From Rhodospirillaceae bacterium (GTDB lineage: Bacteria > Pseudomonadota > Alphaproteobacteria > UBA8366), in assembly GCA_002724395.1 (NCBI GenBank), contig PBOR01000037.1:12261-76260 (forward strand): DNA of 64,000 nucleotides. Direction: 5' to 3'. The number at the start of each line of letters is the position of its first letter. Position 1 is the first letter of the stretch. The notes beneath the pieces are model-generated. The model was not told the origin of the DNA. It did not search any database and saw only the letters and a program-made list of their open reading frames with translations. The position numbers and the translations under genes are program-made. This document shows, piece by piece, positions 454 through 28,759 of this stretch.

Positions 454-755
454 TTTGTTCGAAAAAGAAATTTAGGATAACCTGACCTTAAGTTTAAATT
501 TGTTTCTGCAGAGCGTTACCCAATCTAAGGCTATTTGCGACCCTGATACTATTTAGGATGCGTTGTCGTCTATTACAAAGTTAGCCGGACGAAATAGTAA
601 TAACTTCCTCAATTATAGTAACCTTTAATTTATGAGTGCTTTTGAATTTTTGGATGGTATTTTGAGATAATTGAGGTTAGACAATCTTTACAACGTAATA
701 GATGGTTCTGGTAACTCGCGGTTTCGGTTAGCAGAAAGAACATGGAGTGGAGCTA
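454..755. other. Intergenic region upstream of the multiheme cluster
   Basis: About 300 bases of AT-rich sequence between the divergent tRNA-Ser gene and the first cytochrome gene. It must hold the promoter(s) for the cytochrome gene and for the tRNA. I found no convincing FNR/CRP palindrome (TTGAT-N4-ATCAA or TGTGA-N6-TCACA) and no clear -35/-10 pair. The 60-codon ORF at 671-853 in the track has no recognisable features and runs into the cytochrome gene in another frame, so I do not call it. Confidence 0.5.
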
Positions 756-1706
756 ATGCGTTTTTTCTTAGAGATTGGAAAAGTCGTTGGGTCGCGTGTC
801 TGGCTGCTGGCATTAATGATCTTAATAGTTGCAGGTGCTTTCAATATTCATAGTGCTCAGGCTGGGCCTAATAATGTTGGCGCTAAAAAATGCAAGGAGT
901 GTCATAAGGCTGAGCATGGTGTTTGGAAAGGCACTAAGCATTTTAAGTCCTACCGCAAAGTTCACAAGAATAAAAAAGCCAAAAAAATCGTGAAAGCTGT
1001 TGGTGGCAAGCGGATGAAAAAAACAGCGCTTTGCAAGACATGTCACTACACAACGGACAAAAAGGATCGGCCGAAATCTGGCCCGAGTTGCGAAAGTTGC
1101 CATGGTGCTGCAAAAAATTGGATCAATATTCATAACGATTACGGTAAGGGTAAAACCCGTGAAACTGAAGATGCGGCGCATAAGGCTGCCCGTAAGAAAA
1201 ATGCCACAGCAGCTGGCATGATTTGGCCCTCTGAGACCTTTGACGTAGCTATGAATTGTAACGGCTGCCATGGCCTTGGAAACGTTCCAAACGGAGGTGA
1301 CATAGCAAAAATGCTTGATTCTGGTCACCCGCTTAATGCCGGCTTTGAACTTGTGAAATACAGTCAGGGCTCAGTTAGGCATCGCTTCTATCCGCCAAAA
1401 GTCACTGAGAATCAGAAGATGACTAAAGCACAAATGTCTGCGATGTTCGTAGCTGGTCAAGCAGCTTCTCTGGTTGCCGCGACAAAGGCGATCAAGAAAA
1501 GCAAGCATGCGAAGTTCGTTGCCGCTCAGAAAGAACGTATAGCATTGGCGAAGAAAGTCTTGGCTGCGGTAAAGGGTTCAGTGCCGGCAGCGGGTAAGGT
1601 CCTGTCTTCACCAACTGCAGCAAATGGACGTGCCTTATCGAAGGCTGTAGCGGGCAAAGATTTGACCGGTGCTGTTGGGAAATGGTTGCCGACAAGCTTT
1701 AAATAA
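756..1706 (+). CDS. Tetraheme c-type cytochrome, cytochrome c554-like
   Basis: Secreted cytochrome of 316 residues. The signal peptide ends near SAQA/GPNN. Four CxxCH haem sites follow at about Cys46 (CKECH), Cys93 (CKTCH), Cys112 (CESCH) and Cys168 (CNGCH). The haem half is lysine-rich and resembles the cytochrome c554/c' family, which shuttles electrons in the periplasm. The C-terminal third lacks haem sites and is Ala/Lys-rich, probably helical. I prefer the ATG at 756, eight bases after a GGAG, over the in-frame GTG at 747. It is the first gene of the multiheme cluster but is separated from the next by about 160 bases with a large hairpin, so it may be expressed at a different level. The partner is unknown; the high positive charge suggests docking to an acidic protein. 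Confidence 0.85.
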   Translation: MRFFLEIGKVVGSRVWLLALMILIVAGAFNIHSAQAGPNNVGAKKCKECHKAEHGVWKGTKHFKSYRKVHKNKKAKKIVKAVGGKRMKKTALCKTCHYTTDKKDRPKSGPSCESCHGAAKNWINIHNDYGKGKTRETEDAAHKAARKKNATAAGMIWPSETFDVAMNCNGCHGLGNVPNGGDIAKMLDSGHPLNAGFELVKYSQGSVRHRFYPPKVTENQKMTKAQMSAMFVAGQAASLVAATKAIKKSKHAKFVAAQKERIALAKKVLAAVKGSVPAAGKVLSSPTAANGRALSKAVAGKDLTGAVGKWLPTSFK

Positions 1707-1864: not shown

Positions 1865-3532
1865 ATGAGCGCTATTCCCGCCGGTCCGACTATCGCGCGC
1901 CCACAGCGATGGGATTCTCCATTTGATTCTGAAATGACCGACGAAATGGTTGAAGGGCTTCTTGAAGTCAAGGAAATTGCCGGCATACAAGCCGATAAAT
2001 TTCCGGCGAGGATTCCGCTCGAGGGTATCCTAAAGAATGACACGCGCATTATTAAGTATGAATCTGGCGATATTATAGTTCGTCAAGGCGATTACGGGAA
2101 CTCAGCTTTTTTAGTTCTAGATGGTGATCTGCGTGTAGTTGTTTCTCCCGGATTGCCGGAGGACATAATAGGTCGCAGCGATGAAACGCAGCGTACTTTC
2201 TTTAATTCTTTATCCCAGCTATGGACTAATAGTTGGTTTCCAGAAGTTCGCGATGATTTTTCGGCATCTAAGACAGGGCTCAGACATAGCGAGGACAAGA
2301 CAGATGCGGTTCGTGGCGTCTTTTTACAGGATGTTCCCGCTGTCCTCGATCAACATAAAACGGTTGTTTTATCTGAGGGAGCTTTGTTTGGAGAGCTTGC
2401 GGCTCTTGGGCGAGTTCCTCGTACGGCTAGTATTTTTGCTGAGGGCGAAGCCACGCTGCTGGAAATTCGATGGCAGGGCCTTAGGGAGCTGCGGAATTAT
2501 GATGAAGGATGGCGCCGAATCATAAATCAACGGTATAGAGAAACGGCGCTGCGTACGCATCTTAATGAAACACCAATGTTTAAAGGTCTCAGCGATGAAG
2601 TAATGAAAAAAATTGCTGATCAATGCTTATTTGAGACCTATGGCAGTTTTGAATGGCATACGTCCTTTAAGCAGGCTCGCAACAGAGGCATTGATAAAGA
2701 ACCCATTATTGCTCGCGAGCGAGAATATCCAGATGGGCTATTGTTAATTCGAGCCGGATTTGCGCGCGAATCAATCAAACATGGCAACAGCCGCCGCACG
2801 GTAACCTATTTAGGGGCGGGGGATCATTATGGATTGGAAGAATTATATGCTGCGTGGAAAAATCCAGATGATGCAGATGGTGCACTCAAATCATCGCTGA
2901 CCTCCCTAGGGTATGTGGATGCCATTCGCGTACCTGCGACTGTCCTCGAAGAATTTATTTTCCCAAATATGTCTCCACCGGAAAGTCGAATTGAGAAGGT
3001 GCGATCTCGTTCGATTGATCAGGATTCCCTGTTAGAGTGGGCCGTCGAAGAGCGTTTTATCAATGCTCGGAAAGCTATGGTCATCGATATGGACAAGTGC
3101 GTGCGATGCGATGATTGCGTTCGCGCGTGTGCGTCAACCCATGGAGGGAACCCGAGGTTCCGACGTCATGGTAAAACCCATGATCATTGGATGGTAGCAA
3201 ACGCTTGCATGCACTGTGTTGATCCTGTTTGCATGATTGGTTGCCCAACAGGCGCAATTCATCGGTCTCTCAGCGGTGGTAGGGTCATCATCAACGATAA
3301 AACATGTATTGGCTGCGGTACTTGTGCGAATTCCTGCCCCTATAATAATATTTCAATGGTCAATATTGCAGATAGTGATGGCACGCGAATTGTTGATGAA
3401 GCAACTCACAAGCCAATTATGAAAGCAACTAAGTGTGATCTTTGTACAGGGCAGCTTGGTGGGCCCGCTTGCGTACGTGCTTGTCCTAATGGTGCTTTGA
3501 AAAGAGTGAGTTTCAATGAATTCGATGCCTAA
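1865..3532 (+). CDS. Fusion of tandem cyclic-nucleotide-binding domains with a four-cluster [4Fe-4S] ferredoxin
   Basis: A 555-residue cytoplasmic protein with no signal peptide or membrane segment. Residues about 55-215 form a CRP-like cyclic-nucleotide-binding domain; its phosphate-binding cassette FGELAALGRVPRTAS matches the consensus FGE-x-A-(x)n-PR-T/S-A, so nucleotide binding is credible. A second, more divergent domain spans about 235-375. Residues 405-550 are a ferredoxin module of the DmsB/NrfC type with four cysteine groups (CVRCDDCVRAC, CMHCVDPVCMIGC, CIGCGTCANSC, CDLC-x6-C-x3-C). No helix-turn-helix is seen, so it is not a transcription factor. It overlaps the next gene by 17 bases, so the two are probably translationally coupled. 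I infer an electron-transfer subunit gated by a cyclic nucleotide. Confidence 0.85.
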   Translation: MSAIPAGPTIARPQRWDSPFDSEMTDEMVEGLLEVKEIAGIQADKFPARIPLEGILKNDTRIIKYESGDIIVRQGDYGNSAFLVLDGDLRVVVSPGLPEDIIGRSDETQRTFFNSLSQLWTNSWFPEVRDDFSASKTGLRHSEDKTDAVRGVFLQDVPAVLDQHKTVVLSEGALFGELAALGRVPRTASIFAEGEATLLEIRWQGLRELRNYDEGWRRIINQRYRETALRTHLNETPMFKGLSDEVMKKIADQCLFETYGSFEWHTSFKQARNRGIDKEPIIAREREYPDGLLLIRAGFARESIKHGNSRRTVTYLGAGDHYGLEELYAAWKNPDDADGALKSSLTSLGYVDAIRVPATVLEEFIFPNMSPPESRIEKVRSRSIDQDSLLEWAVEERFINARKAMVIDMDKCVRCDDCVRACASTHGGNPRFRRHGKTHDHWMVANACMHCVDPVCMIGCPTGAIHRSLSGGRVIINDKTCIGCGTCANSCPYNNISMVNIADSDGTRIVDEATHKPIMKATKCDLCTGQLGGPACVRACPNGALKRVSFNEFDA

Positions 3533-4397
3533 TCCGGACATAAAGCCTGCGAATAGTTCCGATTCAAGCGTGTGGCAAAAGCTCAGTCAGCCTTCTCGCG
3601 ACTTAATTTTATTTACAGTAATCGCTGTGTCGGGGATTTTTGGACTTTTTTTATTGCTTGACGGGTATGAGAAAAGTTTAGTTCGAACCGATACGCTCAC
3701 GGGATATATTCTCTTTTCGCTGTTTATCTTTTTAGGCGCACTAAACTCACGTAAAAAATTATCGATGATCCCGTTGGGTCGAGCGAGCTTATGGCTTTCA
3801 GCACACGTTGTTTTTGGCGTTGCTGCAGTCGGATTATTCTGGCTTCATACCGGAACGATTTGGCCGCTCGGACTTTATGAACAGTTACTGACCGCAATAT
3901 TTTATTTGGTGGCAATCAGCGGTGTGGTTGGGTTCCTGCTCTATCGCATAGGTGCTGGGCAACTGACGCAAACAGGCGTGGAGGTTATCTACGAACGTAT
4001 ACCGGGTGAATTATACGAAATTCGGGAAAAGTCGGAAAAAATCGTATTGGAGTGCACTGAGGAGACTGGCAGCGATACGCTCGCGAAACATTACGAAGAT
4101 ACTTTGAGTTGGTTCTTCCGTAAGCCTCGGTTTTACTGGCAAAATATTTTCGGTTTACAAAGTGCAGATCACTGGATGCGTTTTCACGCAGGGTCTGTAG
4201 CTCGGTATCTTGATGAGAAAGAGACAGCCCATTTTGATGAGCTGATGACGTTGATGCGTGTTAAACGCAAGATTGATCACCACTACGCCGCGCAGGATTT
4301 AATGAAAAAGTGGCTTTTGGTGCATTTACCATTGTCGATAGCGTTACTTGTTTTGGCTGTTTGGCATTGGTTCTTGATTGAGGTTTACGCGATATGA
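3516..4397 (+). CDS. Di-heme b-type integral membrane cytochrome
   Basis: A 293-residue protein with about five hydrophobic segments: about 29-48, 62-76, 92-111, 122-144 and 268-288. Two helices each carry a His-x13-His pair (His97/His111 and His270/His284). This is the spacing by which cytochrome b proteins ligate two stacked haems across the membrane. A soluble loop of about 120 residues lies between the fourth and fifth segments. The gene overlaps both neighbours (the ferredoxin fusion upstream and, by ATGA, the decaheme downstream). It probably passes electrons between the cytoplasmic FeS protein and periplasmic c-haems, possibly coupled to quinone. I do not recognise a named family, and the haem count is inferred from histidine spacing only. 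Confidence 0.75.
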   Translation: MNSMPNPDIKPANSSDSSVWQKLSQPSRDLILFTVIAVSGIFGLFLLLDGYEKSLVRTDTLTGYILFSLFIFLGALNSRKKLSMIPLGRASLWLSAHVVFGVAAVGLFWLHTGTIWPLGLYEQLLTAIFYLVAISGVVGFLLYRIGAGQLTQTGVEVIYERIPGELYEIREKSEKIVLECTEETGSDTLAKHYEDTLSWFFRKPRFYWQNIFGLQSADHWMRFHAGSVARYLDEKETAHFDELMTLMRVKRKIDHHYAAQDLMKKWLLVHLPLSIALLVLAVWHWFLIEVYAI

Positions 4398-6232
4398 TCC
4401 TTGATCAAGACAAATTTAAGCAGGAAAACAGCGCCTATGAACGGCCGAACTTTCCCTTTCGCTGTGGTCGTGCCCTGAAGTGGGGCAAACCTTGTGCCCA
4501 TGGTCCAAACAATGACGGCACGTGCGGTGGCGTTTCGGAATGTCGTCCTTTTAACGACAATGGTCGTTGGCTCTGTCGAAAGACTGGCGGTTCTTGCGGT
4601 GATGGTCCGTTACCAACGGGTGAATGTTCGCAGCGACAACTTCCATGTCAGCCTTCAAGAACCATCCGCGGCATTCGTATGCGTCTGGCGTTCACATTTA
4701 TGGCAGCTATGGTGGCCTTAATCGCCGCATTTGGATTTGGCGGCGGAGGAGGAGACGAGGGTGGAGTTTTTCTAAGTCCAGGACCAATATCGGGTATTCA
4801 TCAAAACTTTACCGCTGATGCTGGGTGTGAATCGTGCCACAAGCCACATAACAAAAGTGCTGGCGGCGTTATAGCTGCAGCATTTTCGAAGTCTGGTCCG
4901 TCTGAGTCTTGCACCGACTGCCATGGGTTTGCTGGTTCGGCGACTGCAGCGCATAATGCTTCTTTTGCTGCTGGGTCGACTGCTGCTGGGTCGCCTCACT
5001 TGCTTAAAACTCAATGCAGTATGTGCCATACGGAGCACAAGGGTGTTGACGGAAAAATAACTAAGATGACAGACGAGCAGTGCCACGCTTGTCACAAGGT
5101 AAAGTTCGACTCCTTCACAAATGGACATCCGGCGTTTTCGGCAAACTTCCCAAGTCGCCAACGTGCTAAAATTGCGTTTAGCCATACGACGCATTTGGAA
5201 AAACACTTTGTTGATCCGCGGAACAAGGAGAATGCGCCGAAAGAGCGGTGTGTTAGCTGTCATAATGTAAGCAAAGCAGCGCAGGTCGTGCCTGTTAAAT
5301 CCTATAAAGAAATGTGTTCCAGTTGCCATGATGATGCGATTAAGGAAAGTTCTATGGTGTTTTTCCGCTTGCCGGAGTTCACCGACGATCCATTTGCTGG
5401 CAGTAAAACGACGCCAAGTATGGCTGAGGCGAAGAAGGAATTCGAAAGTGTATCCACGGAGCCGTTAACGTCGATTACCGCGCATTTGTTAAAGGTTGAA
5501 GCGGACGATCCCGAAGGCTACTCGGAGGCTGCTGGACAATTGCTCCGCGATATGGAGGAAACAGGCGTTGAAGCCTTCGCTCCTCTTTTGGAAGAGGCCG
5601 GCGGTAATCCAGTTTCTATGCTGCACGGGATGCCAGCAGAATTGACGAAGGCACTTACTAGCGCGTGGGCGGCCAATAAAGAGTATGAGCCGATAGGCTC
5701 TGAGGCGACCGGTGGCTGGTTTGCCACAGAATTGACGATTGGCTATAAGCCATCAGGTCATGGAGACCAGGTCGTTAAGGCGTGGTTAGATTTTGCGGCG
5801 AAACATGGGGCCGAATCACCGTTGGCTGAGTTGATGGATCCATCTGAAGGACCAGGCGCTTGCATCAAGTGTCACGCTGTCAGCCAAGTAGCTAAACAAG
5901 CGAAGGATGAGAAAGCACTGAAAATAGAGTGGGGTGCGGTGGATCGTTCGAAATCGCCCTTCTTTGCCTATAACCATGAACCCCATTTGAATTTTTTAAA
6001 AGTTGGTGCATATTGCGAAACGTGCCATAAAGTTGACCCGGGAGCAGATATTTCCAAGGCTTTCAAGCAATTTGATCCACTGATTGCTTCGAGCAGCTTT
6101 AAACCTATCAAGAAAGAAACTTGTGCGGAGTGTCATGGGCGTGGTGCTGTCGCACAAAATTGTTTAGAATGTCATAAGTATCATAATGAACCTGCAATCA
6201 ATAAGTCTCTGGGTCCGTTGGCCACAAAATAG
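4394..6232 (+). CDS. Membrane-anchored decaheme c-type cytochrome with cysteine-rich cytoplasmic head
   Basis: A 612-residue protein. Residues 1-88 contain eight cysteines (24, 34, 44, 50, 61, 68, 78, 85) in a Gly/Pro-rich stretch. An arginine-rich patch then precedes one membrane helix at about 97-115, so by the positive-inside rule the N-terminus is cytoplasmic and the rest periplasmic. The periplasmic part has ten CxxCH sites: six clustered at about 145-315, a haem-free helical insert of about 170 residues, then four more near the C-terminus (CIKCH, CETCH, CAECH, CLECH). Spacing in the first cluster resembles cytochrome c3/c7 folds. It is coupled by ATGA to the b-type gene. The cysteines of the head could hold FeS or zinc, giving a single chain that crosses the membrane; this is inference. 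Confidence 0.85.
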   Translation: MILDQDKFKQENSAYERPNFPFRCGRALKWGKPCAHGPNNDGTCGGVSECRPFNDNGRWLCRKTGGSCGDGPLPTGECSQRQLPCQPSRTIRGIRMRLAFTFMAAMVALIAAFGFGGGGGDEGGVFLSPGPISGIHQNFTADAGCESCHKPHNKSAGGVIAAAFSKSGPSESCTDCHGFAGSATAAHNASFAAGSTAAGSPHLLKTQCSMCHTEHKGVDGKITKMTDEQCHACHKVKFDSFTNGHPAFSANFPSRQRAKIAFSHTTHLEKHFVDPRNKENAPKERCVSCHNVSKAAQVVPVKSYKEMCSSCHDDAIKESSMVFFRLPEFTDDPFAGSKTTPSMAEAKKEFESVSTEPLTSITAHLLKVEADDPEGYSEAAGQLLRDMEETGVEAFAPLLEEAGGNPVSMLHGMPAELTKALTSAWAANKEYEPIGSEATGGWFATELTIGYKPSGHGDQVVKAWLDFAAKHGAESPLAELMDPSEGPGACIKCHAVSQVAKQAKDEKALKIEWGAVDRSKSPFFAYNHEPHLNFLKVGAYCETCHKVDPGADISKAFKQFDPLIASSSFKPIKKETCAECHGRGAVAQNCLECHKYHNEPAINKSLGPLATK

Positions 6233-6257
6233 AATAACTGGAAAAAGTGACGAAGAA

Positions 6258-8615
6258 ATGAAGATGTCCCTGCTTAATACCCTTTTTAAAACCTTTTTGA
6301 CGCGCGGTTTTGCTGCATTTTGCGCCATTTCCGTTCTTGTGTCGGGGCTTAGCCTCACATTCGCGAAGGTTAGCTTTGCACAAGACCAGAAGGTTGCATC
6401 GGCACCGGCTAAAGCAGATGCAAAAAGTGGAAAAAAAGCAAAAGCGGCGAGTGAATCGCATGCGGATTTGTTTGCAAAAGAAAGCTATCCGCGTGCGTCT
6501 CAATGTGGTGCGTGCCACACTAAGATTTACAAGGAGTGGGCCTCTTCAAACCATGCTTATGCATCTATTTCGCCGATGTTCCACAAGTTTGAACAACGTA
6601 TTTATGATTTAACTCAGGGAACAATGGGTAGCTTTTGTGTTCGCTGTCATCAGCAAGTTGGCACCCAGCGCGGAGAACCGAGAGAGCTACCGTTGTGGGA
6701 ACGCTCTCAAGTAGCACGTGAAGGCATCACTTGTGTGACCTGTCATCGTGTCAACGAAGAATTCGGTAAGGTCAATGGCGAGCGGCGTATTATTCCCGGT
6801 AATATCCATAAACCTGTTTACGGCACAGCAAAGGGTAGCGTGTTTGCGGATATGGTTAAGCAAAAGGCCGACTATAAAATGGCCACGAACGCAAAAGACC
6901 GCGGCGCCAAAGTCCACGCAAAGGTAGTTAAATTTACGCCAATTAAAAAATCCGAGTTTTGTGTGTCTTGTCACCAAGTCGCCGTTAATCTCGGCATTAA
7001 GCTTGAAGTTGTCTGGGAACAGTATCGTGACTCGCCAGCCTTCAAGGCAGGCGTCTCGTGTCAAGATTGTCATATGGGTAAAGTTCCGGGCAGAGCTGAG
7101 GGATATGATACGGCGCCGGTGGCAATCGTAAACGGCAAAGAGATAAATCCAGGTCGTAAGCATAGTAACCATGCATTCTACGGCCCAGGCTATCCAATAG
7201 CCCATCCTGGCATCTTTCCGCATAACCCAGAGGGGGAGCAGTGGTCCATTCAAAAATGGTTGAAGTTTGATTACAGAGCTGGATGGGGTACCCCAGAGTT
7301 TGAAGAGAAAATTGAGAAAACTATGGAGGCCTTCAGCCCTGTCGATGATGCGACGGGTACACTAGGAGTTATCGATATAGCGCGTGCGCTTGACGAGTTA
7401 AAAGGGGCTCTAAAATCGATGCAGCCTCGCGTGTCTGCTGGAAAATGGCTTGAATATCCACTGAACACCGCAACCGAAGCGTTAAATGCTCTCGGGGAAG
7501 TTGTGGAGAACGATGGTAAAGATGCCGAAGCTCGTGATGCGCTTGTAAAACAAGCTGAGGTTGTCAGAGTCCATGCTAGCAAACTCGGTAATGCCGGAGC
7601 CGCAACAGCCGCCTCTTCGATGGGGGCAACTGCAGCGAAGTTTAAAGGTACTTGGGCAAGTGGCAACGCGGTTGCGACGGTTGATGCGGCCAAGAAATAT
7701 TTGAAAGCGATCAGTAATGCCAAAAATTCCGATGGACGATTGGCTGCTTATCAGTCGCTAGTGGATGCAGAAGCGTCACTTCGAAAAGCTGCCGCGCCTG
7801 GGTTGAAATTAGCATCTGCGGTTTCAGCTTCTAAAGCCGGTTTCTCGGTTGATTTTCCGACTGCGTGGACCGATCCAGGTGATCGTGAGGAGGCAAGAGC
7901 TGTTGTCGAGGACAACCTTGTAGCGCTTGAGGAAAAGCGTGAGTTACGGCGCCAGGTAATGGAAAATGGTGGAACTATTGACGGGCCGTTCTTTAGTGGA
8001 AGCCCTAAAGTTGGTGGTTCTTTGGACTTTAAATACGTAATTAAAAATACGAACTCTGGGCATAATTTGCCATCAGGTTCCCTTGGTGCTCAACCAGAGG
8101 TTTGGCTAAATGTTGCTCTGACTGACCCTGATGGTAAAAATATCTGGGAATCAGGATACGTCGACAGTAACGGTGATTTTGCAGACAACCATTCGTTGGA
8201 TGTGGCTGCAGGTAAAATAAAATTCGACAAGCAATTGTTTAATTTGCAGACGAAGTTTTTGACAACGAATGTTAAAGGGACTGACCGTGAAATGTACCTG
8301 CCGGTTTCCTTTGACATCGATCAGCGACCGTTGCTGCGTCCGGCACCGCAACCGACGACTGTTATCAATCATCCACCATTTGCACGGATGGAGGGTCGCT
8401 CCATGCCTCCACTGTCAACACGGAATGTAAAATATTCGGTGCCTAGTGAGCTGATGAAAAAGCCAGGGAAATACAAATTATCTGTGCGTATGAGAACAAG
8501 AGCAGAGCCGATCTACTTTATGCGGTTTGTACAGGCGACCCCGGAAATGGAGCGGACCATGAACCAATGGATGTTGGATGTTCATCCGTATTCAGTAGAA
8601 TTTGATGTAAAGTAG
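6258..8615 (+). CDS. Pentaheme c-type cytochrome, c554 family, with C-terminal beta domain
   Basis: A 785-residue secreted protein. The track start at 6186 lies inside the preceding gene; ATG at 6258 gives a clean signal peptide cleaved near VSFA/QDQ. Five CxxCH sites lie at about Cys83 (CGACH), 127 (CVRCH), 159 (CVTCH), 235 (CVSCH) and 268 (CQDCH), in the arrangement of the cytochrome c554/c-prime domain. Residues about 370-530 are Ala-rich and helical. The C-terminal 200 residues look like a beta-sandwich with a SGHNLPSG motif, a motif I associate with large multihaem cytochromes of the cell surface and periplasm. The gene lies 25 bases after the decaheme gene. It could be a periplasmic redox enzyme or a carrier; the substrate is not evident. 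Confidence 0.82.
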   Translation: MKMSLLNTLFKTFLTRGFAAFCAISVLVSGLSLTFAKVSFAQDQKVASAPAKADAKSGKKAKAASESHADLFAKESYPRASQCGACHTKIYKEWASSNHAYASISPMFHKFEQRIYDLTQGTMGSFCVRCHQQVGTQRGEPRELPLWERSQVAREGITCVTCHRVNEEFGKVNGERRIIPGNIHKPVYGTAKGSVFADMVKQKADYKMATNAKDRGAKVHAKVVKFTPIKKSEFCVSCHQVAVNLGIKLEVVWEQYRDSPAFKAGVSCQDCHMGKVPGRAEGYDTAPVAIVNGKEINPGRKHSNHAFYGPGYPIAHPGIFPHNPEGEQWSIQKWLKFDYRAGWGTPEFEEKIEKTMEAFSPVDDATGTLGVIDIARALDELKGALKSMQPRVSAGKWLEYPLNTATEALNALGEVVENDGKDAEARDALVKQAEVVRVHASKLGNAGAATAASSMGATAAKFKGTWASGNAVATVDAAKKYLKAISNAKNSDGRLAAYQSLVDAEASLRKAAAPGLKLASAVSASKAGFSVDFPTAWTDPGDREEARAVVEDNLVALEEKRELRRQVMENGGTIDGPFFSGSPKVGGSLDFKYVIKNTNSGHNLPSGSLGAQPEVWLNVALTDPDGKNIWESGYVDSNGDFADNHSLDVAAGKIKFDKQLFNLQTKFLTTNVKGTDREMYLPVSFDIDQRPLLRPAPQPTTVINHPPFARMEGRSMPPLSTRNVKYSVPSELMKKPGKYKLSVRMRTRAEPIYFMRFVQATPEMERTMNQWMLDVHPYSVEFDVK

Positions 8616-8700: not shown

Positions 8701-8720
8701 GGAGAGGAGCAACTCCATTG
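8701..8720 (+). promoter_or_regulatory. Strong ribosome binding site fixing a TTG start
   Basis: GGAGAGGAG lies seven to nine bases before a TTG codon at 8718, with no better ATG nearby. Starting here gives a full signal peptide, so the TTG start is credible. Confidence 0.7.
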
Positions 8721-10265
8721 TTTACTGACTGTACTAAAAACCACTTTTGTGTGCGGGCAGCGATTATTGCCGCAGGATTTGCAATTGCTATTTGTAGCAC
8801 ATCGACGTCTGCGTGGAGTGCCGATGCGCCGGTTAAGATGTCATCGGAAGCGAAAAAAATCCCGTTCGACCCAAATTTATTCCGCCCAGACCCGCAATAC
8901 GAGGACAAACCCTATAGCGCACCGAAGCAAATTGAGATTTATGGTGGTAAGTCGAGTATGGATGTTCCGCGTCCTCTTCTTGAGCTAGGACGTCCGATCT
9001 ACACGGAAGGCCCTTTTTCGGAGGGTTATAACCTTATAGGCAGAAAGAATATCGTTGATCCCGCACTTTCTGTTTACGGCGATATCAAGACTGCATTTGG
9101 CTTCAATAAAAACGGTGACCAGGATCAGGCCATACTCGCAACCCAGTTAAACCTCGATGTGGATTTAAAGTTAACAGGAACAGAGCGTATTCATGCGTTT
9201 TTTAAGCCTTTGGATAAGGGCGGGCAATTTACCAGTATTGAACTTTTTGGTTTTGGTGACGAAGACCAACCACGACTTGAGCTGGATTTAGATCCGGAGA
9301 CTATCTTTTTCGAAGGTGACATGGGAGCCATTGTGACTGGACTCACCGATGAATATCAAACCTTCGATTTTCCGTTTTCTATCGGCTATATGCCACTTCT
9401 CTATCAAAACGGCATTTGGATGGATGATAATATCATCGGCGGTGCTTTTGCTATTCCAGCGTTAAATAGTCCTAAACTCGATATATCGAATATGGACATA
9501 TCGGTTTTTGCTGGTTTTGACCGGGTCACTACACAAGCTATTAAGGACAGCCGTGGCGATAATGCTGATCATAATGTCGATATTTACGGTATCGCGACTT
9601 TTGTTGAAGCGCTTGAAGGTTACTGGGAAGCGGGCTTTGGCATTATTGATGGTGAGAGTGATTTCAAGGACTTAGATTATTACAGTGCGACGATAGCGTT
9701 TTCAAAGCGGTATGGAGGGTGGCTTTCAAACAGTGTACGCTTCCTGGCTGCGTTCGGACAAGATCGAGATAACAATGTCCAGCAAACCGCGGACGGTCAG
9801 CTTCTTTTGATAGAAAATTCTTTGATCACGCATTTGCCGAGCACTCTGGTGCCATATTTAAATGTGTTCGCAGGTTTCGATCGTCCTCGGCAACTGGCTG
9901 ATGATAACGGGCCCTTAAAAAATACTGGTATTAATTTTGAGGCTGACGCACTGAGCCTGTTCCCGAATTTGGATGATACTGGGCATGATACTTGGGGGGG
10001 TGCACTGGGGGTTGAGTATCTATTCAGTCTGGACCAGCAACTCGTTGTTGAAGTCGCGACAGTTCAGATTATTGGCGATGCTAACGAAGTTGGCCGTGCT
10101 GCTAAAGACGATCAGTATGGATTTGGCGTTCGTTATCAACGGCCACTCGGTCACAAAGGTGGTGAATTATCGAGGTGGATTGTGCGTTTGGATGGAATGT
10201 ATGGATTATTCAAGGATAACGACGATATTGCTGGGGCTCGCCTTGAATTCAGGCGCAAGTTTTAA
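8718..10265 (+). CDS. Outer-membrane beta-barrel (porin-like) protein of the multiheme cluster
   Basis: A 515-residue protein with a signal peptide (hydrophobic about 13-28, cleavage near AWSA/DAP). The mature part has alternating hydrophobic/polar strands with many aromatic residues and acidic turns. It ends in RRKF, and a C-terminal phenylalanine is the usual signal for BAM-dependent barrel assembly. There are no CxxCH sites. The start is TTG with a strong ribosome binding site. It sits between a pentaheme cytochrome and a reductase in the same orientation. It may be a substrate porin for the periplasmic enzymes or the sheath of an outer-membrane electron conduit, as MtrB-type barrels are; sequence alone does not decide. 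The family is not recognised. Confidence 0.75.
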   Translation: MFTDCTKNHFCVRAAIIAAGFAIAICSTSTSAWSADAPVKMSSEAKKIPFDPNLFRPDPQYEDKPYSAPKQIEIYGGKSSMDVPRPLLELGRPIYTEGPFSEGYNLIGRKNIVDPALSVYGDIKTAFGFNKNGDQDQAILATQLNLDVDLKLTGTERIHAFFKPLDKGGQFTSIELFGFGDEDQPRLELDLDPETIFFEGDMGAIVTGLTDEYQTFDFPFSIGYMPLLYQNGIWMDDNIIGGAFAIPALNSPKLDISNMDISVFAGFDRVTTQAIKDSRGDNADHNVDIYGIATFVEALEGYWEAGFGIIDGESDFKDLDYYSATIAFSKRYGGWLSNSVRFLAAFGQDRDNNVQQTADGQLLLIENSLITHLPSTLVPYLNVFAGFDRPRQLADDNGPLKNTGINFEADALSLFPNLDDTGHDTWGGALGVEYLFSLDQQLVVEVATVQIIGDANEVGRAAKDDQYGFGVRYQRPLGHKGGELSRWIVRLDGMYGLFKDNDDIAGARLEFRRKF

Positions 10266-10281: not shown

Positions 10282-11565
10282 ATGGTTTCCATCTTAATTC
10301 AATACACATCTTTTGCGATATTAGCGGCGGCTTTAGCGTATTTAGCGCTTTTGGTTTACCGAAGCTATGGTGCCAGCATCGCAGCCACTGCTAATGCTGA
10401 AATTGAGCAAAAAATTCTAGCGGCTCGCGTGGGCGAAATAATGGATCGCCGACGCGTTTTCACACAAAAAGAAGAGTTATCCTGGCAGGGATTCCGTAAA
10501 TTCGAAGTTGTCGAAAAAAATGACGAGGGTGGGGATATTTGTTCGTTTTACCTTAAACCCCATGATCGTCGGGATTTGCCGCCGTTTGAGCCTGGGCAGT
10601 ATTTGACGTTCCAGTTGGATACGGGCGAAACCAAGCCTCTTATCCGATGCTATTCTTTGTCGGATAGCCCTAAGGCCGAATATTATCGTGTTTCGATTAA
10701 GCGTTGCCCGCCGCCTCGTGATAAGCCAGAAATTCCCCCGGGACGCTCGTCAAACTTTTTTCACGACTCCATCAATGTTGACGACATTTTAGATGTTAAG
10801 GCTCCGTCTGGAAAATTTTTTCTCGATACCAACCGCCAGACACCAGTAGTTTTAATCGGAGGTGGCGTCGGAATTACACCAGTGATGTCGATGCTCAATC
10901 AAATCGTTGAATCCGGCAGCAAACGCGAAACCTGGTTTTTCTATGGTGTTCGTAACAAAGCCGAAGAGGTGATGGGTGATCATTTAAAAGCGATTGGGGC
11001 CGCTCACGATAATATTCAAGTACGTATTTGTTATTCTAGGCCAGGCGACGATGACGTTGAAGGTGAGGATTACCATCACGCTTGCCGTGTGGGGGCAGAC
11101 TTATTCAAGGAAGTCCTGCCATCTAATAATTATGATTTTTACTTTTGTGGCCCACCGCCAATGATGAATACGCTGTTCGAGGGGCTGCGAGAATGGAACG
11201 TGCCTGAAGCTAACATTCACTACGAAGCATTTGGTCCAGCCACAGTTAAGAAGAAGAAAGAGGCGGATGACGCAGCTAAGCCAGAGGGTGATGGCGCAAA
11301 GAAAGCAAAAACATTTAATGTTATTTTTGATAAGTCGGGCAAGACAATTGAGTGGGACCCTGATGCAGAGACTTTATTAGACTTTGGCGAAGCTAATGGT
11401 ATAGCGATGGATTCCGGCTGCAGAGCGGGCAATTGCGGTACATGCATTACCGCGATTAAAAAGGGGAATGTAGCTTACGTATCTGAGCCTGGGGACCCGC
11501 CAGAAGAGGGATCTTGTCTGGCATGTATTTGCACACCCGATGGGGAATTGGTTGTCGATGCCTAG
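10282..11565 (+). CDS. Membrane-tethered NAD(P)H:flavin reductase with C-terminal 2Fe-2S ferredoxin domain
   Basis: A 427-residue protein. One N-terminal membrane helix (about 5-27) is followed by a ferredoxin-reductase fold with the FAD motif RCYSLSD, the nucleotide-binding GGGVGITPVMSML and CGPPPMM. A Lys/Ala-rich linker (about 318-340) leads to a plant-type 2Fe-2S domain with C-x4-C-x2-C (CRAGNCGTC) and a fourth cysteine near CLAC. The order, reductase then ferredoxin, is that of phthalate-dioxygenase-reductase and Hcr proteins, the reverse of NqrF. It begins 16 bases after the barrel gene. It probably exchanges electrons between NAD(P)H and the cluster's FeS/haem proteins at the inner face of the membrane; the direction is unknown. 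Confidence 0.82.
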   Translation: MVSILIQYTSFAILAAALAYLALLVYRSYGASIAATANAEIEQKILAARVGEIMDRRRVFTQKEELSWQGFRKFEVVEKNDEGGDICSFYLKPHDRRDLPPFEPGQYLTFQLDTGETKPLIRCYSLSDSPKAEYYRVSIKRCPPPRDKPEIPPGRSSNFFHDSINVDDILDVKAPSGKFFLDTNRQTPVVLIGGGVGITPVMSMLNQIVESGSKRETWFFYGVRNKAEEVMGDHLKAIGAAHDNIQVRICYSRPGDDDVEGEDYHHACRVGADLFKEVLPSNNYDFYFCGPPPMMNTLFEGLREWNVPEANIHYEAFGPATVKKKKEADDAAKPEGDGAKKAKTFNVIFDKSGKTIEWDPDAETLLDFGEANGIAMDSGCRAGNCGTCITAIKKGNVAYVSEPGDPPEEGSCLACICTPDGELVVDA

Positions 11566-11692: not shown

Positions 11693-13060
11693 ATGTCGAA
11701 GGCTCATGAAAGCGATGCAAAAACAAAAGAATATTTAGAACGTTATATGGAAGGTGTGCAAAAACGTAATCCTGGTGAACCTGAATTTGTTCAAGCGGTT
11801 TACGAGGTTGCCTCGTCTATATTTCCTTACATCGCTGATAAGCCAATGTATCACGAGATGCAAATCTTGGAGAGAATGGCCGAGCCGGAACGTGTCATTT
11901 CGTTCCGTGTTCCATGGACTGATGATAAAGGAAATATTCGTACCAATCGAGGCTGGCGTGTGCAGTTCAATTCGGCGATTGGTCCGTACAAAGGCGGTAT
12001 TCGTTTTCATCCGAGCGTAAATCAGTCAATCCTGAAATTTCTCGGCTTTGAGCAAACTTTTAAAAACAGTTTGACCGGTCTGCCGATGGGCGGCGGTAAA
12101 GGTGGTGCGAATTTTAATCCAAAAGGAAAAAGTGATAATGAGGTTATGCGTTTCTGCCAATCGTTTGTGACGGAACTGTATCGTCATATTGGTGCAGACA
12201 CCGACGTTCCTGCTGGCGACATTGGCGTTGGCGGACGCGAGATTGGATTCATGTTTGGGCAGTACAAGCGCATCACTAATGAATTTGTTGGTGTGCTTAC
12301 TGGTAAGGGCATGGAATTTGGTGGATCGAAAATGCGGACCGAAGCTACAGGTTATGGCGCTGTCTTTTTCCTGCGCAATATGTTGGCACAGCACAAAGAT
12401 GCAATCGATGGCAAAAAGGTATTGATTTCTGGTTCTGGTAATGTCGCCACGCATGCTGCGGAGAAATGTCTGCAATTAGGTGCAACACCAATTACACTAT
12501 CGGATTCGGGCGGCTTCGTTCATTGCGCAGATGGCTTTACCCAAGAGCAGGTCGATTGGATTAAAGAACTCAAGGGAGCACGTCGCGGACGTATTTCTGA
12601 GGCAGCCGATGAATTTAACAACGTGACATTCCACGAGGGACGTCCTTGGGGTATCGAAGCCGATTGTGCGATCCCGTCTGCCACGCAGAATGAAGTTAAC
12701 GCGGAAGAGGCTGCTGTGATGATTAAGAATGGTGTAATGGCAGTCGCTGAAGCGGCTAACATGCCATGTGAACAAGGGGCTGTGGATTCATTCATGGAAG
12801 CAGGCACTCTTTTCGGTCCTGCAAAAGCTGTAAATGCCGGTGGTGTGGGTGTCTCAGGTTTAGAGATGAGCCAAAATAGTGCTCGTATTTCCTGGGATGA
12901 GGACCACCTACGGAAACTGCTGGAAGACATGATGCGTGATATTCATGATTCCTGTGTTCAGTATGGCGGAGACGGTGATAAAGTGAATTATTTGCAAGGC
13001 TCTAATATAGCAGGTTTTGTTAAGGTTGCCGACGCAATGCTTAGCTACGGTCACGTTTAG
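11693..13060 (+). CDS. gdhA: NADP-specific glutamate dehydrogenase
   Basis: Converts 2-oxoglutarate, ammonium and NADPH to glutamate in the cytoplasm. Its 455 residues match the usual length of hexameric bacterial GdhA. The family core is visible: GPYKGGIRFHPSV, then the active-site region GLPMGGGKGG and, in the cofactor domain, SGSGNVATHAAEK. The ATG at 11693 follows GGAGAG at a normal distance. It stands alone, with a dyad in the leader and a terminator after it. Its position next to the multiheme cluster might hint at nitrogen metabolism, but gdhA is a common housekeeping gene and the adjacency may mean nothing. Confidence 0.96.
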   Translation: MSKAHESDAKTKEYLERYMEGVQKRNPGEPEFVQAVYEVASSIFPYIADKPMYHEMQILERMAEPERVISFRVPWTDDKGNIRTNRGWRVQFNSAIGPYKGGIRFHPSVNQSILKFLGFEQTFKNSLTGLPMGGGKGGANFNPKGKSDNEVMRFCQSFVTELYRHIGADTDVPAGDIGVGGREIGFMFGQYKRITNEFVGVLTGKGMEFGGSKMRTEATGYGAVFFLRNMLAQHKDAIDGKKVLISGSGNVATHAAEKCLQLGATPITLSDSGGFVHCADGFTQEQVDWIKELKGARRGRISEAADEFNNVTFHEGRPWGIEADCAIPSATQNEVNAEEAAVMIKNGVMAVAEAANMPCEQGAVDSFMEAGTLFGPAKAVNAGGVGVSGLEMSQNSARISWDEDHLRKLLEDMMRDIHDSCVQYGGDGDKVNYLQGSNIAGFVKVADAMLSYGHV

Positions 13061-19566: not shown

Positions 19567-19932
19567 ATGCAAGACCTGCTTCGTGAATACGTACCGATCG
19601 TCATTTTTCTCGCGATTGCTATTGGAATGGCGTGCGCAATGTTAATCGCCAGTTATATTATTGCGCGACAAAAACCTGATTCTGAGAAGTTGTCAGCTTA
19701 TGAGTGCGGCTTTGAAGCATTCGATGATGCTCGCAGTCAATTTGATGTTCGGTTTTATCTGGTGGCAATACTATTTATTATCTTCGATCTTGAAGTCGCT
19801 TTTCTTTTTCCTTGGGCAGTGGCACTGGGGGATATTGGGTTATTTGGCTTTTGGTCCATGTTTGTATTTCTTGTCATTCTCACCATTGGCTTTGTCTACG
19901 AATGGCGAAAAGGAGCTTTGGAATGGGAGTAA
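19567..19932 (+). CDS. nuoA: NADH-quinone oxidoreductase subunit A
   Basis: Small membrane subunit of complex I, 121 residues with three helices; part of the quinone-site loop region. The conserved [14 protein letters not shown] loop and the [11 protein letters not shown] helix are diagnostic. The ATG follows GGGGGAG by seven bases. First gene of a complete nuoA-N operon; the end overlaps nuoB by 10 bases. Confidence 0.97.
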
Positions 19933-20468
19933 CTGCTGGTTCAAACCAGGGTGTATTAAAGCCTGGTCCATCGCAAGATATCGCTTTGAGCGCTGTTACT
20001 GAAACGCTTAGTGATAAGGGATTTGTTATTGCTAATTTCGACAAGCTTGTGAATTGGGCTCGAACGGGTTCTCTCTGGCCTATGACATTCGGACTTGCTT
20101 GCTGCGCTGTTGAAATGATGCATGCCTACATGCCTCGCTATGACCTCGATCGGTTTGGCGTGGTACCGCGGGGCTCCCCTCGGCAATCTGATGTCATGAT
20201 TGTAGCTGGCACATTAACAAATAAAATGGCGCCTGCGTTGCGAAAAGTTTATGACCAAATGGCCGAACCACGTTGGGTGATTTCTATGGGAAGTTGTGCT
20301 AACGGTGGTGGGTATTACCATTATTCATACTCTGTTGTTCGGGGTTGCGACCGTGTGGTCCCAGTCGATATTTATGTTCCTGGGTGTCCGCCTACCGCTG
20401 AAGCTTTAGTCTACGGCATCTTGCAGCTTCAAAAGAAAATTCGCCGTATTGGTACTATCGCACGTTAA
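19923..20468 (+). CDS. nuoB: NADH-quinone oxidoreductase subunit B
   Basis: Holds the terminal iron-sulfur cluster N2 of complex I that reduces quinone. Cys-Cys in LACCAVEMM, the cysteine in GSCANGG and the cysteine in [11 protein letters not shown] are the cluster ligands. The ATG at 19923 gives 181 residues and overlaps nuoA; the track start at 19812 lies within nuoA and is rejected. Confidence 0.96.
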
Positions 20469-20478
20469 CGCAGGCAGC

Positions 20479-21129
20479 ATGGCGGATCTCGAATTAATGG
20501 ACGAACATAGTCTCATTTTAGAAGAGCTCGGGGAGCATATTGTCGAACAGTGTAAGGGTGACGTGCTCGATCACTTGGTCGCTCATGGTGAGTTATCGTT
20601 ATCCGTGGCGGCGAGTGATATAAAAAAGGTATTGAGGATTTTGAAGGCAGATACCGCGTGCCTTTTTCATGTATTGATCGACGTTTGTGGGGTTGATTTC
20701 CCAGAGCGAAAGCCACGTTTCGATGTAGTTTATAATCTTCTGTCCCTGAAACGTAACTTGCGTATTCGCGTAAAAGTGGCTGTTGGAGAAGATGATAAAG
20801 TGCCATCCGTTGCTGAAATTTTTCCTTCAGCTGGCTGGTACGAGCGTGAGGTGTGGGATCTCTATGGTATTTTCTTCAGTGGCCATACAGACTTACGCCG
20901 TATTTTGACGGACTATGGCTTCGATGGGCATCCATTGCGTAAAGATTTCCCGCTAACCGGCCACGTGGAAGTGCGGTATGACGATGAATACCGTCGCGTC
21001 GTTTATGAGCCTGTGAAATTGACTCAGGAATTTCGAAGTTTCGATTTTCTGAGTCCGTGGGAGGGTATGACGCCAACCTTGCCCGGTGATGAGAAAGCTA
21101 AAACGGAAGAAGAGCAGGAAGACGCTTAA
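20479..21129 (+). CDS. nuoC: NADH-quinone oxidoreductase subunit C
   Basis: Peripheral-arm subunit (30 kDa type), 216 residues, needed to assemble the N2-quinone module with NuoB and NuoD. The family block [20 protein letters not shown] followed by LTDYGF and HPLRKDFPL is present. Separate from nuoD, as usual in Alphaproteobacteria (E. coli has a fusion). The ATG at 20479 lies 10 bases after the nuoB stop; the track start at 20449 overlaps nuoB and is less likely. Confidence 0.95.
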
Positions 21130-21132
21130 GAA

Positions 21133-22311
21133 ATGTCCACCGAACATCAAATCAAAACGATGACCATCAACTTCGGTCCTCAACATCCGGCTGCACATGG
21201 TGTTTTACGTATGGTCATGGAGATGGACGGCGAAGTAGTGGACCGGATCGATCCCCATATTGGGCTTTTACACCGTGGAACTGAAAAACTTATCGAACAC
21301 AAGACGTACCTTCAGGCTATACCATATTTTGATCGGCTCGATTATGTAGCTCCGATGAATCAGGAACATGCCTTTGTTCTTGCAGCCGAAAAGTTGTTGG
21401 TATTAGAGGTACCAAAACGTGCCCAGTTTATCCGCGTGCTCTACGATGAAATAGGCCGAATTCTTAACCATCTGCTGAATTTAACCGCATTCGCCCTTGA
21501 TGTAGGGGCCATGACCCCCATGTTGTGGGCTTTTGAACATCGCGAAATTCTCATGGAATTTTACGAACGCGCTTCTGGGGCCCGTTTACATGCGGCCTAT
21601 TACCGGATTGGTGGCGTGCATCAGGATTTGCCAGCAGGCCTCCTCGAGGATATCGAAGAATGGACTGATGGGTTTCCTAAATTTATTGGTGAAATGGAAA
21701 CTTTGCTAAATGGCAACCGTATCTTCAAACAACGAAGCGTCGATGTAGGTATCGTATCTGCCGAGGATGCAATGGCTTGGGGCTTTACTGGGCCAATGCT
21801 GAGGGGGTCTGGTGTCCCATGGGATTTACGTAAATCGCAGCCTTATATGATCTATGATGAACTGGATTTCGATATTCCAGTTGGTAAAAATGGGGATTGT
21901 TATGACCGCTACTTATGTCGGGTCGAAGAGATGCGGCAAAGTTTAAAGATCATCAAGCAATGCATTGAAAAAATGCCTGAAGGATCAGTTTTAGCACGCG
22001 GTAAAGCGGCGCCGCCGTCCCGTGGTGAAATGAAAAATTCAATGGAAGCACTCATCCACCATTTCAAGCTGTATACGGAAGGGTTTCATGTGCCTCATGG
22101 AGATACCTATACTGCGGTCGAGGCTCCTAAAGGAGAATTTGGTGTTTATCTTATTGCTGACGGTTCCAATAAACCCTACCGCTGTAAAATTCGTGCGCCA
22201 GGTTATCCACATTTGCAAGCGATGGATTTTCTTTGTAAAGGCCACATGCTGGCCGATTCCGTAGCGGTACTCGGGTCCATGGATATTGTGTTCGGTGAGA
22301 TAGATCGTTAA
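21133..22311 (+). CDS. nuoD: NADH-quinone oxidoreductase subunit D
   Basis: The 49-kDa subunit of complex I, 392 residues, lining the quinone site with Nuo[13 protein letters not shown] at the start and the C-terminal [11 protein letters not shown] are signatures. It begins three bases after nuoC. Confidence 0.97.
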
Positions 22312-22320
22312 GGCAAAGGG

Positions 22321-22899
22321 ATGAGCAAAATATTTGAATTTTCAGCTGAATATTCACCACAGGTCGAACGAGCAATTGCGAAATATCCCAAGGGCCGTCA
22401 GCAAAGTGCCGTTTTGCCTTTGCTTGATCTCGCGCAGCGTCAGATAGGTGGGTACGTCTCCGATGAGGCGGTCGATGCGATTGCTGCAATATTAGAAATG
22501 CCGCGCATTAGGGTGATCGAAGTCGCCACATTTTATACGATGATTAATTTAAAACCGGTCGGAAAGTTCTTGCTTCAGTGTTGTACGACTACACCATGCT
22601 GGTTGCGGGATTCGGGAGCCGTCGTAGATGCCATAAAAGAGCATTTGGATATCGGCTTGGGCCAGACGACCAAAGACGGATTATTTAGTTTGATGGAAGT
22701 CGAATGTTTGGGAGCATGCGTGAATGCCCCAGTAGTACAAATCAACGACGACCTTTACGAAGATTTGACTGAAGACAATGTAGTCAAAGTGCTTGAAGAG
22801 CTGAAAGCCGGTAAAGTGCCGGCGATGGGCTCTCAAATAGGTCGTAAAGGTTCAGAGCCGATTGATGGTGCAACCACTTTAACAAGGGCAGCCGAGTAG
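22321..22899 (+). CDS. nuoE: NADH-quinone oxidoreductase subunit E
   Basis: The 24-kDa subunit carrying the [2Fe-2S] cluster N1a. Four ligand cysteines are seen in CTTTPC and in the [10 protein letters not shown] block. Its 192 residues include a short extra C-terminal tail. It lies between nuoD and nuoF, one base before nuoF. Confidence 0.96.
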
Positions 22900-22900
22900 C

Positions 22901-24202
22901 ATGCTGGAAGATAAAGACCGCATATTTACTAATTTGTATGGCTTTGAAGATTGGCGCCTCAAAGCTGCCAAATCACGTGGTGATTGGGATGGCACTGCCG
23001 GTATCATGAAAAAGGGACGTGATTGGATAGTTGAGGAAATGAAGGCATCAAGCCTTCGAGGAAGGGGTGGGGCCGGTTTCCCAACAGGTTTAAAGTGGTC
23101 CTTTATGCCAAAGGAGGAAGGTGAAAGACCTCATTATCTCGTTGTTAATGCGGACGAGAGCGAGCCCGGTACCTGCAAAGACCGTGATATTTTGCGTAAT
23201 GACCCGCACAAGCTTATCGAAGGCTGTGTATTAGCTGGTTTCGCCATGGGTGCACATGCGGCTTATATTTATGTGCGTGGTGAATTTTATAATGAAGCCA
23301 TGCGATTAGAGGCCGCCGTTGCAGAGGCTTATGAAGCGAATCTATTGGGCAACGACGCTGCAGGTTCTGGGTGGGCGTTTGATGTCTTTGTACATCGAGG
23401 GGCGGGAGCCTATATTTGCGGCGAAGAAACCGCTCTACTCGAGAGCCTCGAGGGAAAAAAGGGCCAGCCTCGACTAAAGCCCCCATTTCCGGCTATGTCA
23501 GGCCTCTATGGTTGTCCGACCACTGTTAATAATGTTGAAACCATAGCCGTCTCACCGACAATTCTGCGCAGAGGGGCAAAATGGTTTACCGGGTTCGGTC
23601 GTGAAAATAATCATGGCACGAAGGTTTTTTGTATATCGGGCCATGTTAACCAGCCCTGTAATGTGGAAGAATCTATGTCTATTCCGTTGAGAGAGCTGAT
23701 TGAAAAACATGCAGGCGGGGTTCGTGGCGGCTGGGACAATTTGTTGGCCGTAATTCCCGGCGGCAGTTCGACTCCTTGCATACCAAAAAACGTGTGTGAC
23801 GATATTTTGATGGATTTTGATTCCTTGGTCGAGGCCAAAACCGGACTTGGGACTGCGGCGGTGATCGTAATGGATAAATCGACTGACATTATTAAAGCCA
23901 TTGCACGGCTGGCGTATTTTTATAAACACGAAAGCTGTGGTCAGTGTACACCTTGCCGTGAAGGAACTGGATGGATGTGGCGGGTTCTAGAACGTATGGC
24001 GGCAGGTAACGCCTCCGTTGATGAAATCGACACATTACTGGACGTATCCCATCAGGTGGAGGGGCATACGATTTGTGCGCTGGGCGATGGTGCTGCTTGG
24101 CCAGTTCAAGGTTTAATCCGTCATTTTCGCCCCGTGATAGAAGAACGCATTATAAACGCTAAGACACATGCACCTGCGGTTATTGCGGCAGCAGCGGAGT
24201 AG
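22901..24202 (+). CDS. nuoF: NADH-quinone oxidoreductase subunit F (NADH/FMN site)
   Basis: The 51-kDa subunit, 433 residues, which oxidises NADH through FMN and passes electrons to cluster N3. The NADH/FMN glycine motif [13 protein letters not shown] is at about residue 51 and the 4Fe-4S ligands [10 protein letters not shown] are near residue 350. Normal length. Confidence 0.97.
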
Positions 24203-24211
24203 GGACAAGCG

Positions 24212-27308: not shown

Positions 27309-27311
27309 AAC

Positions 27312-27800: not shown

Positions 27801-27827
27801 AAGCATTGGTCTTTAGGAATTAATCCC

Positions 27828-28442: not shown

Positions 28443-28753
28443 TGTTGGAAATTACTTTGGCTCATTACCTTAGCTTGGGGGCTATTCTTTTTGCATTGGG
28501 CTTATTCGGCATCTTTCTCAATCGTAAGAACGTCATCATCATCTTAATGTCCATCGAGCTAATGCTGCTTGCCGTAAATATTAATTTTGTCGCGTTTTCG
28601 AGTTATTTGTACGATTTGGTTGGCCAGATATTCGCAATTTTTGTCCTGACTGTAGCAGCTGCAGAAGCTGCAATTGGACTGGCCATACTAGTGGTATATT
28701 ACCGCAACCGCGGTTCCATCGCCGTTGAAGACATCAACATGATGAAGGGCTAG
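28442..28753 (+). CDS. nuoK: NADH-quinone oxidoreductase subunit K
   Basis: Membrane subunit ND4L, 103 residues with three helices; the buried glutamates of proton transfer lie in [13 protein letters not shown] and in [11 protein letters not shown]. Start overlaps nuoJ. Confidence 0.96.
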
Positions 28754-28759
28754 CATAAC

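Follow-up and report, generated by a model that had tools for sequence, protein, structure and literature searches.

Gene cluster and its components

The window, by which we mean the whole 64,000-nucleotide stretch of Rhodospirillaceae contig PBOR01000037.1 analysed here (from an assembly rated 7.65% contaminated), carries a set of seven genes for redox and envelope proteins. In gene order, their products and one internal feature are as follows.

747..1706, + strand: tetraheme c554-like cytochrome with a signal peptide (Pfam, motifs)
1865..3532, + strand: subunit of 555 aa with two cyclic nucleotide-binding (CNB) domains and four [4Fe-4S] clusters, ATG start, predicted cytosolic (the CNB-ferredoxin)
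3516..4397, + strand: cytochrome b with five predicted transmembrane (TM) segments, TM4-TM5 segment at residues 150-260; no Pfam family, no PDB fold
4394..6232, + strand: 10-heme c-type cytochrome, N-terminus inside, anchored by one TM segment (93-120)
4463..4648, + strand: cytosolic 8-Cys stretch of the 10-heme cytochrome, residues 24-85 (Cys conservation)
6186..8615, + strand: 5-heme c-type cytochrome with a signal peptide, start probably an internal Met near 6258
8718..10265, + strand: predicted outer-membrane beta-barrel with a signal peptide and an invariant C-terminal Phe
10282..11565, + strand: membrane-anchored NAD(P)H reductase with FAD_binding_6, NAD_binding_1 and a C-terminal Fer2 domain

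The start of the 5-heme cytochrome is placed near 6258 because the first in-frame ATG gives an implausible N-terminus ahead of the signal peptide. In the 10-heme cytochrome, the eight Cys that precede the TM anchor are 94-100% retained among 67 homologues. The barrel ends in Phe, the usual ending of outer-membrane proteins; no Pfam family, MtrB included, scored above its cut-off in the three barrels searched, and a barrel profile run against the PDB gave no match. Features of the reductase are a TM segment at the N-terminus, an RxYS-type FAD motif, an NAD motif and four Fer2 cysteines (C380, C385, C388 and C415). Downstream of the cluster, on the same strand, lies a respiratory complex I (nuo) operon (19567-30709).

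The cytochrome b family has four invariant His residues in 79 sequences, H97 and H111 in TM3 and H270 and H284 in TM5, the members of each pair lying 14 positions apart. NOX/ferric reductases likewise have a His pair on each of two TM helices, at a spacing of about 13-14 residues, and the pattern agrees with a stack of two b hemes through the membrane. Basic residues conserved at 79-80 (Arg/Lys) and 264 (Lys) suggest, by the positive-inside rule, that the TM2-TM3 loop and the TM4-TM5 segment face the cytosol. The family could not be assigned to any Pfam entry above cut-off; the matches to DUF4405 and Ferric_reduct were marginal, the latter at E~0.03 in two of 53 members. The structural model is confident (pLDDT 93), and comparison with the PDB returned neither a fold match nor a sequence match.

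Conservation and distribution

A scan of 85,462 species genomes gave 430 relatives of the CNB-ferredoxin, and cluster content was determined from the best 80 loci. Nearly all of these 80 contain the seven-gene set. When neighbouring open reading frames (ORFs) were clustered, the seven families were each found in 56-79 loci, and no other family occurred in more than 11. Carriers among the best 80 loci belong to the Alpha- and Gammaproteobacteria, Nitrospinota, Verrucomicrobia, Omnitrophota, Elusimicrobia, Chloroflexi, Planctomycetes and Poribacteria, so that the cluster reaches at least seven phyla besides Pseudomonadota. In an evenly drawn sample of Pseudomonadota it was present in about 3% of genomes (12 of 398). 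The pair formed by the 5-heme cytochrome and the barrel is missing, or swapped for another multiheme c-type cytochrome, in some lineages, which leaves the reductase, the tetraheme cytochrome, the CNB-ferredoxin, the cytochrome b and the 10-heme cytochrome as the constant core.

Neighbouring genes for a TPP enzyme, a metallo-hydrolase, an ABC ATPase, a MotB/OmpA protein and a TolC-like protein looked lineage-specific and were set aside from the core. The TolC-like outer-membrane efflux gene follows the reductase gene at four loci (L041, L045, L048 and L055). A glutamate dehydrogenase gene trails the cluster in several alphaproteobacteria (window 11693-13060; L081:15562-16757). The L081 enzyme is about 89% identical to that of the window, whereas the cluster proteins share 39-61%, which indicates a different history for the dehydrogenase. 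Some genomes, including G069, G080, G493 and G511, have two copies of the CNB-ferredoxin gene. At locus L022 (G020 C3:112152-113784) the CNB-ferredoxin is split into two overlapping frames by a frameshift or an assembly error, and the cluster is otherwise intact.

The literature searched, in which subscription journals were mostly not included, contained no description of a CNB-[4Fe-4S] subunit or of the cluster, and the searched passages of Nitrospinota genome papers do not mention either. The seven-gene chain is thus widespread and apparently undescribed.

Architecture of the CNB-ferredoxin

The domains and sites of the CNB-ferredoxin are located as follows.

2036..2569, + strand: CNB1, residues 58-235 including the C-helix (AlphaFold2 secondary structure, Foldseek, alignment)
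2156..2359, + strand: insert of about 68 residues in CNB1 (98-165), ahead of the cassette; part of it is disordered in the model
2387..2434, + strand: phosphate-binding cassette of CNB1, residues 175-190, FGELAALGRVPRTASI (conservation, entropy)
2705..2950, + strand: CNB2, residues 281-362, with a degenerate cassette that lacks the phosphate Arg (alignment, entropy)
3050..3520, + strand: four-[4Fe-4S] ferredoxin domain, residues 396-552, 16 Cys (Pfam, PDB match, alignment)

Pfam places cNMP_binding (E 3.5e-18; 65.8 bits against a cut-off of 27.5) and a number of Fer4 models on the ORF at 1865-3532, in agreement with the initial annotation that both folds occupy one chain. The chain recurs at about 50% identity or more across several phyla, and the fusion is therefore not due to chance. 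The initial annotation had also noted that a DNA-binding domain is absent; no helix-turn-helix (HTH) model in Pfam matched the ORF, and CNB1 is followed by CNB2 and the Fer4 region where a CRP/FNR protein would have its C-terminal HTH. A reading of the protein as a transcription factor was rejected on this ground. The reported overlap with a b-type cytochrome gene holds as well, at 17 nt, the next ORF being that with the four invariant His. The assignment of the clusters to the DmsB/NrfC type needs revision: the domain does have four clusters and 16 Cys, but its closest relatives by sequence are the HycB/HydN-type four-cluster ferredoxins (7qv7, E 7e-20), with DmsB/NrfC more distant. Fourteen of the 16 cluster Cys are invariant in 81 homologues, which are mostly MAG sequences, and C451 and C536 are kept in 80. 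DmsB/NrfC-type proteins are exported, unlike the CNB-ferredoxin, for which neither a TM segment nor a signal peptide is predicted and which is, for that reason, probably cytosolic. Neither the cluster nor the genes that recur next to it include one for a molybdo-, tungsto- or hydrogenase catalytic subunit.

The AlphaFold2 model, built with 57 natural homologues, has a mean pLDDT of 79.6 and a pTM of 0.75. The best PDB relatives of the N-terminal part by sequence are cGMP-dependent protein kinases, and the top Foldseek matches are the tandem CNB structures of PKG-I and the PKA regulatory subunit (E ~1e-16).

The two nucleotide sites

CNB1 has the ribose Glu (E177) and the phosphate Arg (R186) of a canonical cassette. 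F175, G176, E177, A179, A180, R183 and R186 are each found in 81 of 81 homologues, and the motif FGELAALGRVPRTAS, given in the initial annotation as a canonical phosphate-binding cassette, is present exactly. With a mean column entropy of 0.69 bits over residues 172-190, the cassette is the most conserved stretch measured, above the average of the Fe-S domain (0.90 bits), and in the model its helix (177-182) sits in a confident block. Further support comes from the beta2-beta3 loop, a glycine of which co-evolves with the phosphate Arg in CNB domains (Kannan et al., PMC2246266). In CNB1 the loop glycines G75 and G78 are invariant (alignment A2, 57 sequences) and are flanked in the model by beta2 (69-72) and beta3 (80-86). 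The insert upstream of the cassette is variable (entropy 2.17), with pLDDT below 50 at 132-152.

CNB2 differs at each of these points. The stretch equivalent to the cassette has a mean column entropy of 2.02 bits, and its region 320-346 has no invariant position and no phosphate Arg among the 81 homologues. The tandem sensors described initially are thus tandem in fold, but not two live sites. CNB2 serves as an internal negative control, which implies that the CNB1 site has been held by selection while that of CNB2 has decayed. Only one of the domains, CNB1, looks able to bind a nucleotide.

Fused relatives and FHA variants

Distant relatives, among them those at L023, L025 and L026, encode a Pyr_redox domain, two CNB domains and four [4Fe-4S] clusters on one chain. 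In Sphingobium herbicidovorans this fused protein is annotated only as a cyclic nucleotide-binding domain-containing protein. Both of its CNB cassettes are canonical. Downstream lie genes for the same b cytochrome and a 10-heme cytochrome, with the 5-heme/barrel pair also present at L023-L025. No separate gene for the FAD/[2Fe-2S] reductase was found at fused-type loci. Conversely, Pfam detects no N-terminal pyridine-nucleotide oxidoreductase on the CNB-ferredoxin chain of the window, and the Pyr_redox flavoprotein is not homologous to the FAD/[2Fe-2S] reductase. The fused flavoprotein has replaced the reductase, which puts the CNB-ferredoxin directly after the NAD(P)H flavoprotein in the electron path. 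These fused proteins are, in our view, the strongest evidence for direct electron exchange between an NAD(P)H flavoprotein and the CNB-ferredoxin.

In fused-type clusters the 8-Cys stretch of the 10-heme cytochrome is replaced by an FHA-like domain, the match being over the cut-off in L025, just under it in L023 and weak in L108. Elsewhere an FHA domain is fused ahead of the FAD/[2Fe-2S] reductase (L021:10267-12309, 60.8 bits), and the reductase at L020:9899-11827 is similarly extended. Thus sensor folds appear repeatedly where this machinery faces the cytosol.

Association with cyclase genes

A class III cyclase (PF00211) is encoded by all 24 carriers tested, which come from many phyla. Within the Pseudomonadota sample it occurs in 12 of 12 carriers compared with 248 of 398 genomes overall (hypergeometric p ~0.003, calculated by hand and uncorrected for kinship). 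In 10 of 88 carriers the CNB-ferredoxin gene has a gene for a class III cyclase with a CHASE2 domain (Pfam) no more than 15 kb away, where 1.08 would be expected; the Poisson p of 2e-7 treats genomes as independent, and becomes 9e-4 when the cases are collapsed, by judgement, to six independent lineages. Such genes stand beside the cluster at L162, L163, L164, L167, L168, L054 and L090. At the linked loci mapped in detail, the cyclase is usually no more than two intervening genes away from the cluster edge, in either orientation, and in one Omnitrophota genome and one gammaproteobacterium the linked cyclase is the only PF00211 gene.

In the other 78 carriers, including that of the window, the CHASE2 cyclase is not close to the cluster; the cyclases of the window genome sit on other contigs, and one of them is a CHASE2 cyclase. 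This type is near-universal in the order to which the window belongs (41 of 44 genomes), so co-occurrence within that order carries no weight; the argument draws on linkage and on the phylum sample.

Class III cyclases with Lys and Asp at the base-specifying positions are of the adenylyl type. Both residues are present (DKY.GD, LGD.VN) in the linked cyclases and in the unlinked copy of the window genome, which points to cAMP.

A putative nucleotide-switched electron conduit

The electron conduit and the conserved CNB1 pocket are well supported by the gene and residue patterns described above. The initial suggestion that cAMP or cGMP directly gates electron flow is the best explanation of them, and we give roughly even chances to the full proposal, in which the cluster would conduct electrons from NAD(P)H to the envelope and its cytosolic Fe-S subunit would be switched by cAMP or, less likely, cGMP. 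Three independent lines of evidence argue for gating: the constraint on the CNB1 cassette, the adjacent adenylyl-type cyclases in unrelated lineages, and the fused relatives with both cassettes intact.

We infer the following route. NAD(P)H would be oxidised at the membrane-anchored FAD/[2Fe-2S] reductase, which would pass electrons to the four [4Fe-4S] clusters of the CNB-ferredoxin. From these they would reach the two b hemes, cross the inner membrane to the 10-heme cytochrome, and continue by way of the tetraheme and 5-heme cytochromes to either the outer-membrane barrel or some other acceptor in the periplasm. The C-helix of CNB1 (214-235) leads into CNB2 and then into the Fe-S domain. Binding of cAMP, or with lower probability cGMP, to CNB1 would move this helix and the decayed CNB2, altering how the ferredoxin domain docks to, or is spaced from, the reductase or the b cytochrome, and electron flow would thereby be opened or closed. 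Exporting electrons from NAD(P)H would cost the cell reductant and membrane potential alike, which makes a switch physiologically plausible.

CNB1 might instead be a structural or assembly element of a real conduit, holding a cyclic nucleotide permanently or none at all, with electron flow not controlled. The loss of the CNB2 cassette indicates that CNB folds are tolerated as scaffold in this chain, whose only output is the Fe-S wire, there being no catalytic or DNA-binding domain. Conservation of exactly the ribose and phosphate contacts would, however, be unexpected of a ligand-free scaffold, as would cyclase genes beside the cluster, and we consider this explanation unlikely.

The conduit may also run inward: a donor in the periplasm or outside the cell would supply electrons that reduce NAD(P)+ by way of the hemes and clusters, and the CNB domains would switch this uptake. 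Sequence does not fix the direction of electrons; several carriers are Nitrospinota or other possible lithotrophs, and an outer-membrane cytochrome/barrel pair would suit uptake. Reduction of NAD(P)+ in this direction would be uphill against the membrane potential, the cluster encodes no energy-coupling subunit, and replacement of the 5-heme/barrel pair in some lineages means that the outer end is not constant. Inward operation therefore seems rather unlikely to us.

A third alternative, which we rate as improbable, keeps the switch and changes its ligand from 3',5'-cAMP or cGMP to, for example, another phosphodiester-bearing nucleotide. CNB-fold proteins with other ligands are known, such as heme in CooA and chlorophenols in CprK (PMC2246266), and nucleoside-bound kinetoplastid PKA regulatory subunits are among our Foldseek matches. 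Those proteins have non-canonical cassettes, in contrast to CNB1, which keeps its phosphate Arg and ribose Glu in all 81 homologues, and the adenylyl-type residues of the linked cyclases also disfavour another ligand.

The roles could also be reversed, with the CNB domain as output and the redox state of the Fe-S clusters, as sensor, setting how much cyclic nucleotide is held or released. The presence of sensor and redox cofactors on the same chain suggests this, but we find it very improbable: no enzyme or effector is attached to take the output, and the genes around the CNB-ferredoxin make up a full electron-transfer cluster that has a reductase and cytochromes of its own. A further reading put forward initially, a redox signal read by the sensor domain, found no support.

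Comparison with known systems

In 2007 Kannan et al. listed CNB domains paired with a pyridine-nucleotide oxidoreductase under the name Bact_Pyrredox (Genome Biol 8:R264, PMC2246266, Table 1 row 13). That entry gives only an N-terminal pyridine-nucleotide oxidoreductase, and the words ferredoxin, iron and electron are absent from the paper. The fused relatives fit this family, with tandem CNB domains on a redox protein and the same type of cassette. The protein of the window differs in having no flavoprotein domain, a separate and unrelated FAD/[2Fe-2S] reductase, and one dead CNB domain. The part already published is only the CNB-flavoprotein pairing of the fused relatives.

The fold and order of the two CNB domains resemble those of PKG-I and the PKA regulatory subunit, and the E-to-R spacing of 9 in the CNB1 cassette is that of PKA. 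Here the output is a [4Fe-4S] wire rather than a kinase, CNB1 carries the insert of about 68 residues, and the second site is non-canonical. The ferredoxin domain has the 16 Cys and four motifs of HycB/HydN/DmsB-type ferredoxins, its best PDB sequence match being HycB3 of 7qv7. Those proteins carry no CNB domain and serve Mo/W enzymes or hydrogenases, whereas the cluster lacks such a catalytic subunit.

NADPH oxidases (NOX) move electrons from NAD(P)H through flavin to two b hemes stacked across the membrane and can be switched by a cytosolic sensor, as by the EF-hands of NOX5. On paper the system predicted here and the NOX/ferric reductase systems work alike. Here, however, the b cytochrome is only marginally similar to theirs (Ferric_reduct below the Pfam cut-off), the reductase is encoded as a chain of its own, four [4Fe-4S] clusters come in between, and the electrons would continue to c hemes. 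Multiheme cytochromes and an outer-membrane barrel also recall porin-cytochrome conduits of the MtrCAB type, from which the cluster differs in a barrel outside the MtrB/PioB family and in a predicted input from NAD(P)H via Fe-S clusters and b hemes, not from a quinol cytochrome like CymA.

If gating can be demonstrated, this would be a new kind of system. It may constitute a separate class of ligand-gated electron conduit, a view we hold tentatively and at slightly less than even confidence, in which a cyclic-nucleotide-switched relay is joined to a di-heme cytochrome b that spans the membrane and whose fold is absent from the PDB; a second messenger would toggle NAD(P)H-driven export within seconds and without gene expression, and the FHA versions would add control by phosphorylation. 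The cluster occurs in many uncultured marine and groundwater lineages, Nitrospinota among them. Given this wide occurrence, and since neither a family nor a fold name exists for its cytochrome b, the system seems to have been missed rather than to be rare. It is the seven-gene conduit with its NAD(P)H reductase that gives the CNB-ferredoxin its meaning; the initial annotation had noted only the b cytochrome among its neighbours. Control of periplasmic and extracellular electron flow in bacteria is usually thought to be transcriptional. A second-messenger sensor inside the electron wire would, if the proposal is correct, give direct and fast control of respiratory or extracellular electron transfer, and would be a bacterial counterpart of the Ca2+-switched NADPH oxidases.
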